A stretch of DNA of 64,000 nt from contig NZ_BMTL01000002.1 in NCBI RefSeq assembly GCF_014649655.1, positions 248,001 to 312,000 of the forward strand. Direction: 5' to 3'. The notes under the pieces are model-generated. The model ran no database searches. It saw only the letters and a program-made list of their open reading frames with translations, and had not been told where the DNA came from. The position numbers and the translations under genes were made by a program. Below, one piece after another: positions 27,748 through 37,890 of the stretch; position 1 is the first letter of the stretch, and every line of letters begins with the position of its first letter. Source of the DNA: Streptomyces humidus (GTDB lineage: Bacteria; Actinomycetota; Actinomycetes; Streptomycetales; Streptomycetaceae).

Positions 27748-27936
27748 ATGAGTGGCGAAACCGAACGGGATTACTGCTTGATCGACGCGACGACTCCGCC
27801 CAGGGCTGACGGGCCGCCATACGCGGAGTGCGTCCTGTGCAGGAAGCCCACCGAATACCCGGAGTCACACAAAGGGGTCACGTTGTGCCCGGCGTGCGAG
27901 TGGCAGGAGGCTCAGCGGACCGCTTGCTCCGGGTAA
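27748..27936 (+). CDS. 62-residue zinc-ribbon-like protein
   Basis: Small protein with two Cys-x-x-Cys pairs (ECVLCRKPTEYPE and LCPACEWQE), spaced as in a single zinc ribbon, plus a lone Cys near each end. No other domain. A TACGCT box (27736-27741) stands six bases before the ATG and could make a leaderless transcript. The TAA stop is part of the first unit of the repeat array that follows. The function is not known; nucleic-acid or protein binding is plausible. Confidence 0.75.
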   Translation: MSGETERDYCLIDATTPPRADGPPYAECVLCRKPTEYPESHKGVTLCPACEWQEAQRTACSG

Positions 27937-28164: not shown

Positions 28165-28836
28165 TCAAGGGGATCGTCGGGAAGTGAGCGAACAAGACGC
28201 GGCGATTGCCGCAGCGCTCAGCAGGGCTGCCGCGGCCAGGGGCAGGACCGGTGTGTGGACCGTCGCCGTGTGGGAGCCGCCGACCAGACCGCTGACGGCC
28301 GCGTGGGCGGGTGAACCGCTCACGACCAGCGCCAGCAGGGCCGCCAGCAGCAGCGCGGGCACCGCCCGACCCGTCGAGCGCAGCACGGGCCAGGCGGTGA
28401 GCGCGCCGACCGCCGTGCCGAGCAGTGCACAGGTCAGGACCGCGAGCAGGCCGGCGCCTGCGGCTTCGAGGACGGGAACCCGTCTCTGGTGATCGCTGCC
28501 GACGGGGTCGCTGATGAGCGTGACGATCGCTGTCGTGATCGTGCCGAGCACAGCGGCCGAAGTCAGCGCGACCAGCACGGAAGCCAGGTGTGCCCGGGCC
28601 GGACCGACGGCTGCCGCGACCACTGCACGAGCGGTCGGGGGTTCGTTGGCGACACAGATCCGCACCAGCCAGGCGGCGACGGGCAACAGGAAGGCGGCGG
28701 CGTAGCCGAGAGAGTCCAGCAGCGGCTGGCCGCCCTGTACGCCGATGCCGAGCGAAGCGGTGTACAGCAAGAACGGCGGCAGCCAGCGCTGCGACCGCAC
28801 CAACAGGGCGGTCTGGTAACGCAATAGGGCAGTCAT
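28165..28836 (-). CDS. ABC exporter-type membrane protein
   Basis: 223-residue integral membrane protein with about six hydrophobic segments (for example LGYAAAFLLPVAAWLVRI and GLLAVLTCALLGTAVGAL). It is the permease partner of the ATPase encoded just upstream: its ATG overlaps the ATPase stop as ATGA. It shows no clear family signature beyond ABC-2-like layout. Together the pair probably exports a small molecule or peptide. The substrate is unknown. Confidence 0.8.
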   Translation of the reverse strand: MTALLRYQTALLVRSQRWLPPFLLYTASLGIGVQGGQPLLDSLGYAAAFLLPVAAWLVRICVANEPPTARAVVAAAVGPARAHLASVLVALTSAAVLGTITTAIVTLISDPVGSDHQRRVPVLEAAGAGLLAVLTCALLGTAVGALTAWPVLRSTGRAVPALLLAALLALVVSGSPAHAAVSGLVGGSHTATVHTPVLPLAAAALLSAAAIAASCSLTSRRSP

Positions 28837-29750
28837 CGGCAACTCTCATCCTGGCTGTGTTCCTGGCTGTCGTCTCGGCCCTCGTTCTGGCTCGCATCTC
28901 CGCTTCCGTCGTGGCGGACGCTCACCACGTGCCACGGCGGGCGGGCGGTCAGCAGAGCGCGGAGCAGGACGTCGGAGTGGGAGGCGGGGACAGTGAGCAC
29001 ATGGAGCCGCTCGGCCGTCTCCTCGGCGACGACGGCCAGGCGGAGCACCTCCGCGGGAAGCGGGGCGGCCGCGCCGTGTACCTCGATGATCATGTGCGGG
29101 CCGTCGGGTACGACGGCCGGTTCTTCGCCGGCACGGCGGTGGAGGCCACCGTCGCGCACCGTGTAGGCGGTGTCCGCGGCCCCGGCGAGACGGCGGGGGT
29201 CGTGGTCGACGAAGACGACGGCCGCGCCGGCGGCCCTCCGCTCGGCGACCGCTCGTTCCAGTTCGGCCCGCGCGTCCGCGTCCAGGCCGGTCCACGCTTC
29301 GTCCAGGATCAGCAGCTCGGGCTCGGCGAGGAGCGCCTGGGCGACGGCGACCTTCTGGCTGCTGCCCTTGGAGAGGCGGGTCATGGGCGTGCGGGCGTGG
29401 GCGACCGCGCCGAAGCGGTCCAGCCACTCCTCCGCGGCCCGCTCGGCCGACACTCGGGGCAGGCCGTGCACCGTGCCGAGATGAGTCAGATAGCCGAAGG
29501 CGGTGAAGGGGAGGGCGGCGGGGAAGCGTTCAGGCACGTAGGCGGTGCGGGGGCGGCCCGTGATGCTGCCCTCCGTGGGCGCGTCGATCCCGGCGAGGAG
29601 CCGGAGAAGTGTGGACTTGCCGCTGCCGTTGGGGCCGTCGATGCGGGTGAGGCTGCCGGGGGCCAGTCCCAGATGCACGTTGCGCAGCACCCACGGGCCG
29701 CGTAACCCATAGCGGCGGCTTACATCGTCCAGGCGTAGATCGCGCTTCAT
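28833..29750 (-). CDS. ABC transporter ATP-binding protein
   Basis: 305-residue ATPase of a two-gene exporter. Walker A is GPNGSGKSTLL, the signature is a variant LSKGSSQKVAVAQAL (usual Gly-Gly-Gln replaced), Walker B is LLILDEAWTGLD and the switch His is in FVDHDPR. The last 90 residues are an accessory segment ending in an Asp/Gln/Ser-rich tail. The ATG at 29750 is preferred because GAAAGG lies 10 bases upstream; an ATG three codons earlier is too close to it. Confidence 0.9.
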   Translation of the reverse strand: MKRDLRLDDVSRRYGLRGPWVLRNVHLGLAPGSLTRIDGPNGSGKSTLLRLLAGIDAPTEGSITGRPRTAYVPERFPAALPFTAFGYLTHLGTVHGLPRVSAERAAEEWLDRFGAVAHARTPMTRLSKGSSQKVAVAQALLAEPELLILDEAWTGLDADARAELERAVAERRAAGAAVVFVDHDPRRLAGAADTAYTVRDGGLHRRAGEEPAVVPDGPHMIIEVHGAAAPLPAEVLRLAVVAEETAERLHVLTVPASHSDVLLRALLTARPPWHVVSVRHDGSGDASQNEGRDDSQEHSQDESCR

Positions 29751-29923
29751 GAAGACCATACCTTTCGCGAGAGGGCCGCGCCCTGGTGGCATGAGAACGA
29801 GTAGAAGCGGTTACCGCGTTCCGGACGACTCGGTGGGGGGGCAGGGACAGCCGCCTGCCGCCACGGGCAACGCCACAGAGGCGCCGACTGCTGCGGGGTC
29901 CGTCGGTCAAGTAGCCTGCGCCT

Positions 29924-30625
29924 GTGAGTGAGAGTCCCTTTCAGACCGAGCCGAACCCTCGTGACCAGGCTCCGCAGTTCGTGTTGCCGCTCGTCGTACG
30001 GATAGAGAAGTCCGCGCCCCCGGCCCGTACCGACGCCTTGGAGACCGCTGCTCGTGCCGTGCTGGTCATGCTCGCCGACGAGCGGTCCGTCGGGGACGGC
30101 GAGTGGGCACAGGTCATGACGGACTGGCAGGACGCCCGGATTCGCAAGGTGGTGCGACGGGCCCGGGGGGCCGAGTGGCGGCGAGCCGGGGAGTTGCCGG
30201 GGATCACGGTTACCGGCAAGTCGGCTGAGGTGCGGGTGTTTCCGCCCGTGCCGCTGGACGGGTGGCCGAAGGAACTGGCGAAGCTGCAAGTTTCAGGAAC
30301 CGATCTCGACGATCCGGAAACCCCTGCGGACGTCGAGCCGGGGACGGTCGTGCTGTGGATGAGTCCGGACGTCGCGATGTCCGCGGGCAAGGCGATGGCC
30401 CAGGCCGGGCATGGCGCGCAGCTCGCCTGGTGGGAACTGTCGGACGCCGAACGGGCCGGCTGGCGCGAGGCGGGATTCCCGCTCGCTGTACGGACCGCGG
30501 ATCGGCGGCGGTGGCATGAACTGACGGCGAGCGGGCTGCCGTTGGTGCGGGACGCGGGCTTCACCGAGATCGCCCCGGGCAGTTGCACCGTCGTCGCGGA
30601 GCATCCGGCCCTGCGCACCCGCTGA
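29924..30625 (+). CDS. Peptidyl-tRNA hydrolase 2-like protein
   Basis: 233-residue protein in which residues 15-70 form a variable N-terminal region and the C-terminal half carries the Pth2 pattern: VVLWMSPDVAMSAGKAMAQA then GHGAQLAWWE, and a final TEIAPGSCTVVAEHP. Pth2 enzymes release peptidyl-tRNA. The bacterial actinomycete version is longer than archaeal Pth2, and activity is inferred. The GTG at 29924 overlaps a GTGAGTGAG run; the ribosome-binding site is weak. Confidence 0.8.
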   Translation: MSESPFQTEPNPRDQAPQFVLPLVVRIEKSAPPARTDALETAARAVLVMLADERSVGDGEWAQVMTDWQDARIRKVVRRARGAEWRRAGELPGITVTGKSAEVRVFPPVPLDGWPKELAKLQVSGTDLDDPETPADVEPGTVVLWMSPDVAMSAGKAMAQAGHGAQLAWWELSDAERAGWREAGFPLAVRTADRRRWHELTASGLPLVRDAGFTEIAPGSCTVVAEHPALRTR

Positions 30626-30653
30626 TCCCTCTCCCTCCGCTCTTCCGCTCCCT

Positions 30654-30694
30654 CCCCTGCCCCTGCCCCTGCCCCTGCCCCTGCCCCTGCCCCA
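30654..30694. repeat. CCCCTG hexanucleotide tandem repeat
   Basis: Six uninterrupted CCCCTG units follow the Pth2-like gene. The stretch 30626-30910 holds no gene apart from this and a pyrimidine-rich tract. Confidence 0.9.
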
Positions 30695-30910
30695 CCCTCC
30701 CTTGTCCGCCGGCTGCTGCCGCCGCTCCGGTGCCCCCTCTGTACCCCTCCCCTGTGCGCCCGTCTGCCCTGTCCGCCCCTCTACCCTTCCGCTGCACTTC
30801 CGCGCGCGAACCTCAAATGTTGCTCTGAAGGGGAGTCCCAGGCGGTTCGGCGGAGGACAGTGGGGCCATACCACCGTCACCACGCAGGGGGAACGAAGGA
30901 GGCGGGGACC

Positions 30911-32314
30911 ATGAGGCGACTGGGGACGGGGATCGGCTGGCGGCCGGAGATCGCGGACGCCGTGGAGCGGATGCCGGGCATCGACTGGGTCGAGGCCGTC
31001 GCAGAGAACGTCTGTCCAGGGCACCTGCCCGCTTCCCTCCTACGGCTCCGCGAGCGGGGGATCACCGTCGTTCCGCACGGCGTCTCGCTCGGGCTCGGCG
31101 ACGCGGAACGGCCCGACCGGGAGCGCCTGGCCGCCCTCGCCCAGCGGGCCGAGGCACTGGGGTCGCCTCTGGTCACCGAGCACATCGCGTTCGTCCGCGC
31201 GGGCGGCCCTTTGACGGGGTCGCCACGGCTGGAGGCCGGACACCTGCTGCCCGTACCGCGCACGCGCGACGCCCTCGACGTGCTGTGCGAGAACGTGCGC
31301 ATAGCTCAGGACGCGTTGCCCGTGCCGCTCGCGGTCGAGAACATCGCCGCGCTCGTGGCGTGGCCGGGCGAGGAGATGACCGAGGGACAGTTCCTTTACG
31401 AGCTGGCCGACCGTACGGGCGTACGGCTGCTCATCGACGTGGCCAACCTGCACACCAATCACGTGAACCGCGGCGAGAATCCCGCCGAGGCGCTAGCGGA
31501 ACTGCCTCTGGAGGCCATCGCCTACGTCCACGTGGCGGGCGGTTTCGAGCGGGACGGCGTCTGGCACGACAGCCACGCCCATCCGGTGCCTCGGCGGGTC
31601 CTCGACATTCTGACCGACCTCGCTTCCCGGGTGTCGCCGCCGGGAGTATTGCTGGAGCGGGACGACAACTTCCCCGAACCGACCGATCTGGAGAGGGAGT
31701 TGGCCGCGATTCGGACAGCTGTCCAGACCGGGGCGGCCCAGGGCTCCGGCGCGCGAACCTCTTCGAGCACCGGAACGCACGGCGTGACACACGCGCCGAC
31801 CACTCCCGACACCCTCGCCACCCCAGTCGCCCTCGCCACTCCTGACACCTCAGCCGTCCCGGCCACCCCTGACACCCCAGCCGCTCCGGACGCAGCGGAT
31901 ACCCCAGCCGAGGCAGCCCGTCAGCGTCTCGGGCTCGCTCAGGCGGCCCTGCTGTCCGCCCTGGTCGCCGGGACACCGGTTCCCGAGGGTTTCGACCGGG
32001 TGAGGCTCGGTGTGCAGGCGCGGGCGCTCGCGGCGAAGCGGGCGGACGTGGTGGCGAAGGTCGCACCGGAGCTGCCGCTGATTCTCGGAGACGGTTACCG
32101 GACCGCTTTCATCGCGTACACCCGGGGGCACCCGATGCGCGACGGCTACCGGCAGGACGCCCTGGATTTCGCCGAGGAAATGCTGCGGGGCACCCGCGCC
32201 GCGCAGGGGCGGTCCCGTCGCGAGCTGCGCCGCTGGTGGCTGGACCGCTCAGGTCCCGCGCCACGGCGGACGTCGCGCCTGGGCCGGGTGGGACGAGCGC
32301 TCATCCGGCACTGA
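30911..32314 (+). CDS. MNIO (DUF692) oxidase fused to a DUF2063/BufC-like domain
   Basis: 467 residues in three parts. Residues 1-272 are a DUF692 TIM barrel. Candidate iron ligands are His56, His91, Glu143, Asp176 ([12 protein letters not shown]), His207, Asp220/His222 (DSHAHP) and Glu249 (LLERDDN). Known MNIO enzymes use two or three irons to modify Cys or Asp in RiPP peptides. Residues 275-335 are a Pro-Asp-Thr linker. Residues 336-430 resemble the small DUF2063 partner ([20 protein letters not shown], then [19 protein letters not shown]), usually a separate protein. GGAGG precedes the ATG. No precursor peptide or TIGR04222 partner is adjacent. Confidence 0.88.
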
Positions 32315-32570: not shown

Positions 32571-33410
32571 ATGCGCCCGCGACCCCCGATCAAGGGCAGA
32601 GGCATCTTCAGTGGCACCGGGCTCATCATCACCGGTCTGGCGGCGACCCTCGCGGCGCTGGTCTTCCCGGTCTGGTCGTACTCCGGTCAGCCGACCGCAG
32701 GCGCGGACGTGCTGAACGCGGAGGCTGTGGCGACCCAGTACGGGCCGCTGTCCGCGCTGGACCAGGAGTTCATCACCAAGGTCCGGCTGGCCGGGCTGTG
32801 GGAGCTGCCCGCAGGTCAGCAGGCGCAGACGAAGGGCACGACCGAGGCGGTGCGGACGGCGGGCCGGCACCTCGTCGAGGGGCACGCCTTCCTGGACCAG
32901 CGGGTGCGCACTGTCGCCTCCCAGCTGGGTCTCACGCTGCCCGACGAGCCCAATGAGCAGCAGAAGGGGTGGCTGGCGGAGCTGGACGCGGCGCAGGGCG
33001 TGCAGTATGACAGCAGGTTCGCCAACATTCTGCGCCTCGCGCACGGCCGGGTGTTCTCACTGGTCGCCCAGGTACGGGCCGGCACCCGCAACTCCCTGGT
33101 GCGCGAGCTCGCCGACGACGCCAACACCACCGTGCTCGACCACATCAAGATCCTTGAGGCCACCGGGTACGTCGACTTCGACGCGCTCGCCCAGGACCTG
33201 ACCACCGGCAGCACGCCACCACCCTCCGACGCCTCCGCGCCACCCGTGTCACCCGTGTCACCCGTGTCACCCGTGTCACCCGTGTCACCCGTGTCACCCG
33301 GAGCGTCGGCCGCCTCGTCCGGTCCCGGACCGGTAGTCCCGCTCCCCGCGCCGTCGTATCCCACGTACACGCTCCCGCCGGCGGCCGCGAGCCCACCGCC
33401 CGGCTCTTGA
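32571..33410 (+). CDS. DUF4142 domain protein with Pro-Val-Ser repeat tail
   Basis: 279-residue envelope protein. Residues 15-35 form a signal or anchor segment (GTGLIITGLAATLAALVFPV). The DUF4142 ferritin-like four-helix domain covers about residues 60-205 (LSALDQEFITKVRLAGLWEL, then ANTTVLDHIKILEATG). The C-terminal 60 residues are Pro/Ser/Ala-rich and include seven Pro-Val-Ser units. GAGCAGGAGG precedes the ATG. DUF4142 proteins are exported; their function is unknown. Confidence 0.88.
   Translation: MRPRPPIKGRGIFSGTGLIITGLAATLAALVFPVWSYSGQPTAGADVLNAEAVATQYGPLSALDQEFITKVRLAGLWELPAGQQAQTKGTTEAVRTAGRHLVEGHAFLDQRVRTVASQLGLTLPDEPNEQQKGWLAELDAAQGVQYDSRFANILRLAHGRVFSLVAQVRAGTRNSLVRELADDANTTVLDHIKILEATGYVDFDALAQDLTTGSTPPPSDASAPPVSPVSPVSPVSPVSPVSPGASAASSGPGPVVPLPAPSYPTYTLPPAAASPPPGS
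33240..33299 (+). repeat. 9-bp tandem repeat CCCGTGTCA in the DUF4142 gene
   Basis: Six to seven identical 9-base units encode Pro-Val-Ser. In-frame expansion or contraction would change tail length without frameshift. Confidence 0.9.
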
Positions 33411-33677
33411 ACCCTCGTCCGCGAACGCGGGCGACGACCGTGCGTACCTGCCCTCCGGTGGCCGTACGGAGGATCCGCGCGGTCCGAGAGCCGGACCTGC
33501 GGGCCGGCTTCGCGCGTCGCGAGCCGCACGGGCGCGACTGAGACAGGGCCGGGGCGCGCTCCATCGCCGGAGGGCGCACAGGGGCATTGGCGCCGACACC
33601 CGCCGGTGGTGCTTGCCTTCCCACTGGGCCGAACCAAACATCCCTTTTGTCGCTGTCGTGCACCGAAGGGACACCCG

Positions 33678-35417
33678 ATGCGAGCCGCCGCCCTCCATTC
33701 GGCTGCAGGAGCCCTGCTGCTGACCGCCCTCACCGCCGTCCCGGCAAGCGGCGTCCCCCACTCCTACGCCCCCGGCCTCCCGAGCGACCCGGAGCGTTCC
33801 GTCGCCTCCGGCAAGGCGCTCGCCTCCGGCCGGACACTCGCCGCCTTCACGGCGCTCACCCCCGGAGCCGCGCTCAGCCCCGACGCCGCACATGCCCCCG
33901 GAGTCACGCTCACCCCCGACGCCGCTCACGCCCCCGGCGTGGCGCTCGCCGCCGTGCGGGCCGCCGCCGAGGGCGTCACCTTCGGGAAGTGCCCCGACGC
34001 GCAGGATCTGCCGGGCGGGATGCAGTGCGGCACGGTCGCCGTACCGCTCGACTACGCGCACCCCGACGGTCCGCGGATCAAACTGTCCGTCAGCAGGGCG
34101 TCGGCCACCCGCAGGGATCCGCACAACAGCGAGCGGCGGGTGCCCCGGCAGGGCGCGCTGGTCTTCAACCCGGGCGGGCCCGGCGGCTCGGGCCGGTACT
34201 TCCCGCTGGTCGGGCTGCTGCCGGAGTGGAAGCGCATCGGCGCCGCGTACGACCTCGTCGGCTACGACCCGCGCGGCGTCGGCCGGTCGGCGCCCCTGTC
34301 CTGCCAGGATCCCAAGCGCTTCTTCAAGGGCCCCTCCCCCGCTCCGGCCCATCCCTCGGAGTCGTACAAGAGGGAACGCATCGCGCAGGCGAAGGCTTAC
34401 GCACGCGGTTGCGCCAAGCGGTCGGGCAGTGCCCTGCGGCACTACAACTCGCTCAACAACGCACGCGACCTGGACGTGCTGCGTGCGGCGCTGGGCGAGG
34501 ACCGGCTGACGTTCATGGGAGCGTCGTACGGCACCTATTTCGGGGCGCTGTACGCGACGCTGTTCCCCTCGCACGTGCGGCGGATGGTGTTCGACGCGGC
34601 CGTGAACCCGGACCCCGCGCAGATCTGGTACCGCGACAACCTCGGCCAGTCGGCGGCGTTCGAGAGCCGCTGGGCGGACCTGCGGGAGTGGATCGCCGCG
34701 CACGACGACGTGTACGGCCTCGGCGACACCGCGGACGAGGTGCTGCACAGCTACGAGCGAGCCCGCGCCCGGCTGGCCGCGGAGCCGGCCGGCGGGAAGG
34801 TGGGGCCCGGTCAGCTGCAGGGCGCGTTCCTTCAGGCCGCGTACTACGACGACTACTGGCCGGGCCGGGCGCAGGCGCTGTCGGAGTATCTGAAGGGCGA
34901 TCCGAAGCAGCTGATCGCGCAGGCCGCTCCCGTGCTCGAGGCGGCCGCCGAGGCGGAGAACGCCAACGCCGTGTACACGGCCGTGGAGTGCAACGACGCG
35001 CCCTGGCCCACGGACTGGAAGGTGTGGGACCGCGACAACACCCGGCTCGCGCGGGTCGCCCCGTTCGAGACGTGGGACAACGTGTGGGCGAACCTGCCGT
35101 GCGCCTACTGGCCGGTGCCCCGGCAGCGGCCGCTCGACGTGCGGACGGGGCGGGGTGAGCTGCCGCCGACGCTGATCCTGGCCGCCGAGCGGGACGCGGC
35201 CGCGCCGTACGCGGGAGCCCTGGAAATGCACCGGCGGCTGTCGGGCTCGGTGTTGGTGACGGAGCGGGACGCGGGCACCCACGGCATCGCGGGAGGGCCC
35301 AACCGGTGCGTCAACGGGTATCTCGACGCGTATCTTCTGGAGGGACGGCTCCCGGCTCGGCGCGCCGCCTGCGCGGGACGCGCGGAGCCGAAGCCGAAGC
35401 CGAGCGCTGCGCACTGA
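33678..35417 (+). CDS. Secreted alpha/beta-hydrolase, tripeptidyl aminopeptidase-like
   Basis: 579-residue exported hydrolase of the Streptomyces tripeptidyl-aminopeptidase/SlpD-type family (peptidase S33). It has a signal peptide (residues 1-28) and an Ala/Pro-rich pro-region with two Asp-Ala-Ala-His-Ala-Pro-Gly-Val units. The catalytic domain starts at FGKCPDAQDLPGGMQCGTV. The oxyanion run FNPGGPGGSG, nucleophile Ser in GASYGTYFG, Asp in LAAERDAAAPY and His in DAGTHGIAGG are present. Cys pairs suggest disulfides. GAAGGG lies before the ATG. It likely cleaves N-terminal peptides outside the cell. Confidence 0.92.
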   Translation: MRAAALHSAAGALLLTALTAVPASGVPHSYAPGLPSDPERSVASGKALASGRTLAAFTALTPGAALSPDAAHAPGVTLTPDAAHAPGVALAAVRAAAEGVTFGKCPDAQDLPGGMQCGTVAVPLDYAHPDGPRIKLSVSRASATRRDPHNSERRVPRQGALVFNPGGPGGSGRYFPLVGLLPEWKRIGAAYDLVGYDPRGVGRSAPLSCQDPKRFFKGPSPAPAHPSESYKRERIAQAKAYARGCAKRSGSALRHYNSLNNARDLDVLRAALGEDRLTFMGASYGTYFGALYATLFPSHVRRMVFDAAVNPDPAQIWYRDNLGQSAAFESRWADLREWIAAHDDVYGLGDTADEVLHSYERARARLAAEPAGGKVGPGQLQGAFLQAAYYDDYWPGRAQALSEYLKGDPKQLIAQAAPVLEAAAEAENANAVYTAVECNDAPWPTDWKVWDRDNTRLARVAPFETWDNVWANLPCAYWPVPRQRPLDVRTGRGELPPTLILAAERDAAAPYAGALEMHRRLSGSVLVTERDAGTHGIAGGPNRCVNGYLDAYLLEGRLPARRAACAGRAEPKPKPSAAH

Positions 35418-36432: not shown

Positions 36433-37890
36433 TCATTCTCCCGCTCCGCCGTGCAGACTCTGCACCGGGTCGGCCATGAGCCGCGCCACGGTGCTCAGAT
36501 CGCCGCCCAGCTGGTCCACCGCGGCGTCGGCGCTGGCGATGCAGGCGGGGATGCCCACGCCGTCGTACGCGGCGCCGCACACCGCGATGCCGGGGAGCCC
36601 GGCCAGGTGCTCGCGGATGCGGGCCACGCGCGCGTGGTGGCCGACGGGATACTGGGGCAGACCGTCCGTCCAGCGGGTGACGCCGGTCTCGAGCGGAGAC
36701 GCGGTCAGGCCGGTGGCCTCGCGCAGGTCGTGCCGGGAGACGGCGACGAGGTCGGCGTCGTCCTTGTCGAGGATCCGCGTCTCGCCGTGGCGGCCCACGG
36801 AGGTGCGCAGCACGACCGTGTCGGGGTTCTCGTCGGCGATCCAGCCCCACTTCTGGGAGGCGAAGGTGGACGCTTTGATGGTGTGTCCGTCGACGGGCGG
36901 GACGAGGAAGCCGCTGCCGTCGGGGAGGGCGGTGTCGGCGCGCCGGTAGGCGAGGGTGACCAGGGCCATCGAGGCGTACTCCACCGTGCGCAGTTCGGCG
37001 GCCGCCTCGGGGGACGCGGCGTCGAGCAGGGCGGCGGCGGCCGGCGCGGGGACGGCGACGACCACGGCGTCGGCCCACAGCTCGCGCTCTCCCGCCGTGA
37101 CGCGCCAGCCGCGCACGGGGTCGCGGCGCAGTGCGGTGACCGGCACGCGCGTGTGGATCTCGCCGCCACGCGCCTCGACGGACGCGGCGACCGCGAGCGG
37201 CAGGCAGCCCACCCCGCCCTGGATGCCCATGAAGACGGGCCCGGTCTGCTGAGCGGCCGCCGCCCGGCGCTGGATCTCGCGCACCGCCTCGGTCAGCGAG
37301 GTGTGCGTGCGCGCTGCCTGGAAGAGCTGCGGAACGGCCGAGCGCATCGAGATGCGGTAGGCGTCGCCGGCGTAGACCCCGCCCAGCAGGGGTTCGACGA
37401 GGCGGTCGACGACCTCGCGGCCCACCCGCGCCGCCACGTACTCCCCGACGGCCACGTCGTCGCCGACCTCGGTGCGGGGCAGGCCGGCGTCGCGCTCGAC
37501 GCGGGCGAGGCCCTCGTCGGACAGGACGCCGGAGAGGGCCTCCGCGGTGCCGGGGACGCCCATGACGTGGCCCTTGGGCATGGGGCGCAGCGCGCCGCGG
37601 GTCCAGAGCGAGGCCGTGGCGGTGGCCGGCGGTTGCAGGCGGTCGGCGAGGCCCGCCTCGCGCGCGAGGGCGACCGCCTCGGGCCGGCGGGCCAGCATCG
37701 ACTCGGCGCCGAGGTCCACGCGCACCCCGGCGATCTCGCCGGGCAGCAGCTTGCCGCCGACCCGGTCGGACGCCTCCAGCACGGTCACCCTCGCCCCGCG
37801 CTGCAGCAGCCGGTGGGCGGCGGCCAGCCCGGCGATCCCGGCTCCGACGACGATGACGTGCTGCCCGGTGTCCGTACCCGTTGCGCTCAT
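36433..37890 (-). CDS. hemG: Coproporphyrinogen III oxidase (HemG/HemY type, CgoX)
   Basis: 485-residue FAD-dependent oxidase of the HemY/CgoX family. The dinucleotide motif [19 protein letters not shown] is followed by [13 protein letters not shown] central substrate-binding domain contains [18 protein letters not shown]. The C-terminal FAD motif is [18 protein letters not shown]. In bacteria with HemQ this enzyme acts on coproporphyrinogen rather than protoporphyrinogen; the presence of hemQ next door supports that. First gene of the hemG-hemQ operon. Confidence 0.95.

Follow-up and report, generated by a model that had tools for sequence, protein, structure and literature searches.

MNIO enzymes carry out unusual chemistry on peptides, and an adjacent gene is the usual place to look for their substrate. 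The TglHI system (3-thiaglutamate) consists of two chains, the oxidase TglH and a partner, TglI, that carries an RRE domain. Nine iron-ligating positions of TglH are given in the accessible text of PMC10880893, which also describes MbnBC (methanobactin) as having a distinct partner, MbnC, and a small precursor, MbnA. The bufferin maturase BufB has a DUF2063-RRE partner. The accessible text of Antoine et al. 2025 (PMC12452194) describes adjamnio-II, a PTH-like protein of 233–256 residues with one Cys, named PF01195, which adjoins MNIO and TIGR04222 genes. It also describes the PME-type 2 partner, which is encoded directly after the MNIO, has no Pfam signature and contains a helical domain resembling TglI or NGO1945. 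Fusions named there include MNIO with nitroreductase, and bufferin chimaeras. In accessible passages of the open-access MNIO literature, including ones from PMC12452194, PMC13174530 and PMC12710340, we found no MNIO fused to its own partner.

The locus analysed here lies in a stretch of 64,000 nucleotides from Streptomyces humidus, referred to as the window, and all coordinates are positions within it (Table 1). Our best reading is that the locus is a one-chain variant of the published, uncharacterised MNIO–TIGR04222 locus. Sister genomes of the window share the PTH-like – MNIO – TIGR04222 order of adjamnio-II loci, and the PTH2-like protein of the window, a neighbour overlooked by the original prediction of an orphan enzyme, fits adjamnio-II in its length and its single Cys. 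It matches PF01981 rather than the PF01195 of the paper, and the two are likened by the description in the accessible text of PMC12452194, not by sequence. The window differs from these loci in that the partner is fused to the MNIO and TIGR04222 is reduced to a remnant. On balance we favour the interpretation that this is a locus of the adjamnio-II – MNIO – TIGR04222 type with MNIO and partner in one chain, that TIGR04222 has been lost, and that the enzyme is likely to work on an unlinked substrate.

Table 1. Features of the oxidase locus and its surroundings, in window positions
Feature	Residues	Position	Strand	Basis or remark
ABC transporter ATPase		28833–29792	-	
PTH2-like protein		29924–30625	+	233 aa, 1 Cys; PF01981, 36.4 bits
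Ribosome-binding site AAGGAGG		30896–30902	+	8 nt ahead of ATG; from the sequence itself
Fusion ORF (MNIO oxidase, linker, partner domain)		30911–32314	+	467 aa in one open frame
MNIO TIM-barrel	6–271	30926–31723	+	PF05114, ligand columns, structural matches
Linker	272–335	31724–31915	+	Low complexity, Pro/Ala/Thr/Asp
Helical partner domain	336–467	31916–32311	+	Apparently PME-type 2-like, remote DUF2063
DUF4142 protein		32571–33410	+	No Cys, repeat tail; recurrent neighbour
Remnant of tail-less TIGR04222 gene		33458–33541	+	Last 27 codons and stop; 81.5% identity to L039, E 5e-10
Alpha/beta hydrolase (TAP-like)		33606–35417	+	Frequent downstream border gene
HemY-like amine oxidoreductase		36433–37890	-	PF01593; HemQ-like gene beside it; frequent flank

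The reading frame at 30911–32314 is confirmed as a genuine ORF and encodes an oxidase and a partner-like domain in one chain, as originally predicted. Residues 6–271 match PF05114 with an E-value of 7.8e-76 and 255.2 bits against a gathering score of 25, and this ORF is the sole PF05114 match in its own 9.7 Mb genome. Among solved structures the predicted barrel most resembles those of TglH (Z 20.5), to which it has 24% identity, and of MbnB in the MbnBC system (Z 19.9), with sugar epimerases and isomerases following from Z 14.7 downward. Against the BufB family (NF050167) the oxidase scores 175.5 bits, below the equivalog cut-off of 310, and it reaches no NCBIfam equivalog cut-off. Scans for consensus promoters and terminators, of a kind that does not cover most Streptomyces promoters, found none.

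The Fe ligands predicted by alignment are H56, H91, E143, D176, N179, H207, D220, H222 and E249, of which H56 and H91 were mapped through the DUF692 protein 3bww and the later ones through TglH. H56, H91 and E143 are invariant in all 94 rows of the alignment with the column filled, and the other six in all 95 rows. By this alignment the oxidase would carry the same ligand residues as TglH at all nine positions, and the full metal-ligand set claimed for it beforehand is borne out.

For a comparison of loci we took stretches of ~15 kb, shorter where a contig ended, surrounding 94 MNIO loci in 93 genomes of the genus, together with one locus without MNIO; two of the 96 matching genomes were left out, G028 (a fragment) and G097 (split between contigs). 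MNIO and partner domain lie in a single open frame in 85 of 95 loci, which rules out a sequencing artefact as the source of the fusion; this count includes L132, whose N-terminal part is unmatched and which was omitted from the tree. In the other 10 loci the MNIO is unfused and ends at 276–297 residues; nine of these have a next ORF, overlapping the MNIO stop, for a separate partner-domain protein of 147–170 residues. In the tenth, L123 (G060), where the MNIO is a second and divergent one, no partner ORF intervenes and the next ORF is itself a Cys-tailed TIGR04222. A profile of the partner domain matches 59 of 296 genomes of the class. Of 30 loci drawn with it, 23 of the 25 within the genus (among them the window and five further first-sample genomes) are fused, and all five outside it, which score highest among 34 matching non-genus genomes, have separate genes. 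The linker contains a degenerate 27-bp repeat (3.4 copies, 31819–31910), and AlphaFold2 gives pLDDT below 50 at residues 283–327. The Pro-Asp-Thr linker predicted earlier is present in the window, but its motif is not conserved, since the linker varies from 23 to 262 residues among relatives.

Sequence comparison supports homology of the partner domain of the window to the stand-alone MNIO partners. The domain itself matches no Pfam family at E up to 10, and the profile PF09836 found nothing in the 60 genomes of the phylum searched, the window's own included. Among related proteins, five of nine members of partner-family set A1 reach PF09836 with an E of 1 or below, and one homologue exceeds its gathering score (27.8 versus 27.2 bits); in the closer set A3 only two of 47 match, with a best E of 0.09. 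The predicted label of a DUF2063/BufC-like domain is therefore remotely right as to DUF2063, on the strength of that homologue, and is not supported as to BufC, given the BufB score and the lack of a predicted RRE. The window shares with the BufB system an MNIO and a partner that is remotely DUF2063-like, and differs in scoring below the BufB cut-off, in having no predicted RRE and in that no Sec-signal precursor was recognised beside it.

In the full AlphaFold2 model (mean pLDDT 72.2) the partner domain is all-helical, with block pLDDT values of 77–90 at residues 331–450. Folded alone it gives a mean pLDDT of 70.2 and a pTM of 0.56, a moderately sure model only, and in neither model is an RRE-like beta element predicted in this domain. 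VIA-align ranks TglI first (Z 6.2, 114 residues, rmsd 6.9 Å) and second (Z 5.9, 111 residues, rmsd 6.3 Å) and places unrelated chains at Z 4.2 or lower, the TglI match itself being weak for a helical domain. Foldseek returned no match at E ≤ 0.001, its best E being above 1 and TglI standing at rank 23 (E 4.9), and a search of the partner profile against the sequences of solved structures gave chance-level matches only (best E 0.81). The partner is weakly similar to TglI residues 25–156, which we take as the helical N-terminal domain of TglI; unlike TglHI, which shares the ligand positions but has two chains and an RRE domain in TglI, the fusion is one chain with no RRE predicted. Of the PME-type 2 traits, judged from the description in the accessible text of PMC12452194 and not from its accessions, the stand-alone homologues directly after MNIO and the helices fit, whereas TglI reaches only Z 6.2 and one homologue does reach a Pfam family.

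The common gene order is PTH2-like – [DUF4142] – MNIO – [tailed TIGR04222] – [DUF4142] – [tail-less TIGR04222] – alpha/beta hydrolase – HemQ-like – HemY-like, with individual genes absent from many loci; HemY and HemQ are names that we presume for these flank genes. The PTH2-like gene lies upstream of MNIO in 71 of the 91 loci with enough sequence. A downstream TIGR04222 protein with a Gly/Ser-rich tail containing 4–11 Cys occurs in 51 of the 95 loci (window included); 34 have a tail-less TIGR04222 only, six have none and four end too early. In this count L111 is classed as tail-less though a long tail with 10 Cys was read, L100 has a short tail with one Cys, and L073 is classed as having no TIGR04222 although its contig ends ~4.6 kb past MNIO and a TIGR04222 match lies on another contig of its genome, G099. 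In fused loci with a tailed TIGR04222 (n = 43) the match to it begins 3–131 bp after the MNIO frame. In seven of eight unfused tailed loci it begins 433–635 bp on, with the partner gene in between; in L123, lacking a partner ORF, the distance is 100 bp. In L133 (G047), from a genome without an MNIO match, a tail-less TIGR04222 is kept beside the hydrolase, HemQ-like and HemY-like genes.

The orphan state of the oxidase is derived, from loss of the neighbouring TIGR04222 genes. In the MNIO tree the window falls within a 40-row set (SH-aLRT 93) comprising 31 loci with a tail-less TIGR04222 only, five with none, three unknown and one tailed; the tree is quick, has many weak branches and is labelled by best match, not by tail Cys. 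The tailed locus, L090, is nested inside and retains its Cys-tailed protein, so the clade is not uniform. Among the named Streptomyces loci nearest to the window (the best 80 of 392 confirmed), none is tailed, 63 are tail-less, nine have no TIGR04222 in the stretch and eight are cut short. The Cys-tailed TIGR04222 has thus been lost almost throughout the window's clade, and the tail-less paralogue, mostly kept elsewhere, has been lost in the window. Its remnant occupies the place between the DUF4142 and hydrolase genes, with DNA similarity beginning near 33429, and was matched to the protein of the sister locus L039, a TIGR04222 at 134.3 bits. The earlier statement that no TIGR04222 lies alongside is accurate for an intact gene and missed this remnant; likewise, the oxidase is an orphan in having no intact TIGR04222 gene adjacent, but by loss. 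As to the exporter said to be missing there, an ABC transporter ATPase gene does lie close by, on the opposite strand. An orphan by design is ruled out by the TIGR04222 genes of sister loci and by the remnant.

The genome of the window contains no TIGR04222 match at E ≤ 0.001 and none that scores more than 14.7 bits (cut-off 43); three weak hits were judged, from their ORFs, to be noise. Four other loci, L040, L060, L092 and L096, keep the enzyme with no TIGR04222 in the stretch; of their genomes, G013, G023 and G045 have no TIGR04222 match and G080 has one (E 2.7e-10). No remnant of the tail-less gene was found in the close relative L040, and the deletions in the window and in L040 therefore have different borders.

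By analogy with TglHI and MbnBC, the N-terminal barrel would hold an iron cluster and use iron and dioxygen to oxidise a peptide side chain, while the partner domain, on its flexible linker, would presumably dock on the barrel and present the substrate. Fusion would fix a one-to-one ratio of barrel and partner. The likely ancestral substrate is the Cys-rich extracytoplasmic tail of the TIGR04222 membrane protein, and Cys is the likely target in loci with a tailed TIGR04222. The deletion in the window has left only the end of the one TIGR04222 gene that remained, so that a substrate would have to be encoded elsewhere, if any remains.

The strongest competing account is that the TIGR04222 partners are gone and the oxidase is a relic, an enzyme without a substrate in which decay is beginning. 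The deletion scar at 33429–33541 and the lack of any TIGR04222 in the genome fit this account, as do a long terminal branch of the window in the MNIO tree (0.14, versus 0.029 in L039) and departures at two otherwise conserved positions of the oxidase, V51I and D190N. The dN/dS of the partner domain on the window's branch is 0.34, versus 0.08 for L039 and 0.19 for L040, on few codons (118), possibly an early hint that the constraint on substrate recruitment is loosening. Against decay, the frame and all ligands are intact, and the MNIO domain has a dN/dS of 0.10 on the same branch, equal to that of the sister L039, although this branch cannot show conservation after loss because its deletion may be recent. 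L040, like the window, comes from a genome without TIGR04222; comparison of the two gives a dN/dS of 0.086 in the MNIO domain and 0.241 in the partner domain, with control values of 0.094 for the HemQ-like and 0.287 for the HemY-like gene. Most of the 40-row set lacks the Cys-tailed protein, and the catalytic domain is no less conserved there: its median dN/dS is 0.134 without a tailed gene (group B, 40 loci) versus 0.218 with one (group A, 53 loci), groups whose labels come from the best match and not from tail Cys, with the cut-short L080, L082 and L089 in B. L119 and L128 were omitted from the groups, and pairs with a synonymous difference outside 0.05–0.5 were unused. This difference may be partly lineage-wide, because the medians of the HemY-like gene (0.281 versus 0.397) and the PTH2 gene (0.216 versus 0.259) also fall, whereas that of the HemQ-like gene is higher without a tailed gene (0.166 versus 0.132). 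Judged by its codon substitutions, the catalytic domain is under strong purifying selection, with dN/dS ~0.1, and the enzyme is therefore most likely still working, on a substrate encoded elsewhere. The four further loci that keep the enzyme with no TIGR04222 in the stretch likewise speak against decay, which we consider unlikely.

A second account holds that the real substrate is the tail-less TIGR04222, the PTH2-like protein, the DUF4142 protein or another conserved neighbour, and was never mainly the Cys tail. In 40 of 95 loci MNIO indeed persists with no Cys-tailed TIGR04222 next to it (tail-less and no-TIGR04222 rows), and the PTH2-like gene occurs in seven of seven genomes with the enzyme versus two of seven without (five lacking an MNIO match and two lacking a partner-domain match). 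However, the tail-less gene is lost in the window too, and the accessible text of PMC12452194 favours an enzyme over a precursor as the role of adjamnio-II. Cys is lacking from the DUF4142 protein in 58 of 62 matches, although some MNIOs modify residues other than Cys according to the accessible text of PMC13174530. A neighbour as the true substrate is thus decidedly improbable. Still less credible, to the point of being very improbable indeed, is that the protein is not a RiPP enzyme and combines a housekeeping xylose-isomerase-like TIM barrel with an unrelated helical tail. The oxidase does match PF01261 (41.6 bits), and a relative is present in nearly every genome sampled from the genus (96 of 101), but it has a complete MNIO ligand set, a partner-type domain and a structural ranking in which a step of ~4 Z units separates TglH and MbnB from the sugar epimerases.

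A wider proposal can be made: that the fused enzyme outlived its Cys-tailed substrate in a large Streptomyces clade and was retargeted to an unlinked substrate, possibly of an undescribed peptide or protein class, with its catalytic domain at least as constrained as before. We put this forward tentatively and give it somewhat less than an even chance. The new peptide class that had been suggested gained no candidate substrate. Among 39 loci without a tailed gene (4.5 kb upstream and 3.5 kb downstream), 290 ORFs of at least 25 residues with at least three Cys yielded no widely shared small Cys-rich precursor, the most widespread being matched in only four other loci. A scan of the whole window for 40-residue segments with at least six Cys gave 35, all overlapping an open frame of at least 100 codons and 13 of them overlapping one with GC3 of at least 0.90, and carries no weight either way. 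A Cys-tail profile (A5) run on the window's genome had a best E of 1.94, an uninformative result, as the positive controls G019 and G004 were also missed. TIGR04222 genes away from MNIO in nine chosen genomes have 0–3 tail Cys; the unlinked one of G062 is unmatched in the window's genome and weakly matched in G013 (E 0.6). Two unlinked TIGR04222 proteins, L245 (G077) and L247 (G009), have three Cys in a Gly/Ser-containing tail and come from a clade lacking the adjacent tailed gene; they are possible substrates in trans in G077 and G009.

The lineage amounts to a natural experiment, the enzyme having been kept and its neighbour lost, so that the range of substrates becomes addressable for an MNIO that occurs in 96 of 101 sampled Streptomyces. 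Biochemical work would be eased by having enzyme and partner in a single chain, and sister loci supply Cys-tailed TIGR04222 proteins as ready-made test substrates. SCO6045 may be linked to this gene, a link that plays no part in our reading. SCO6045 is listed as hypothetical in the accessible text of PMC4991794.

Several minor features were seen around the oxidase gene. At 27748–27936 (+) lies an ORF for a 62-residue protein with six Cys in a CxxC/CPxC pattern, which we take to be zinc-ribbon-like; it is matched at 49 places in the loci, on either strand, and was set aside as a substrate, being present in tailed and tail-less loci alike. On the minus strand, 28165–29792 holds the ABC ATPase (best NCBIfam match AztA, below cut-off) and an adjoining protein of no family, the two being paired in many loci. 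A 6-bp CCCTGC repeat (7.5 copies, 30650–30693) lies between the PTH2-like and MNIO genes, and a perfect 9-bp repeat (6.7 copies, 33241–33300, +) inside the DUF4142 gene encodes its Pro-Val-Ser repeat tail.
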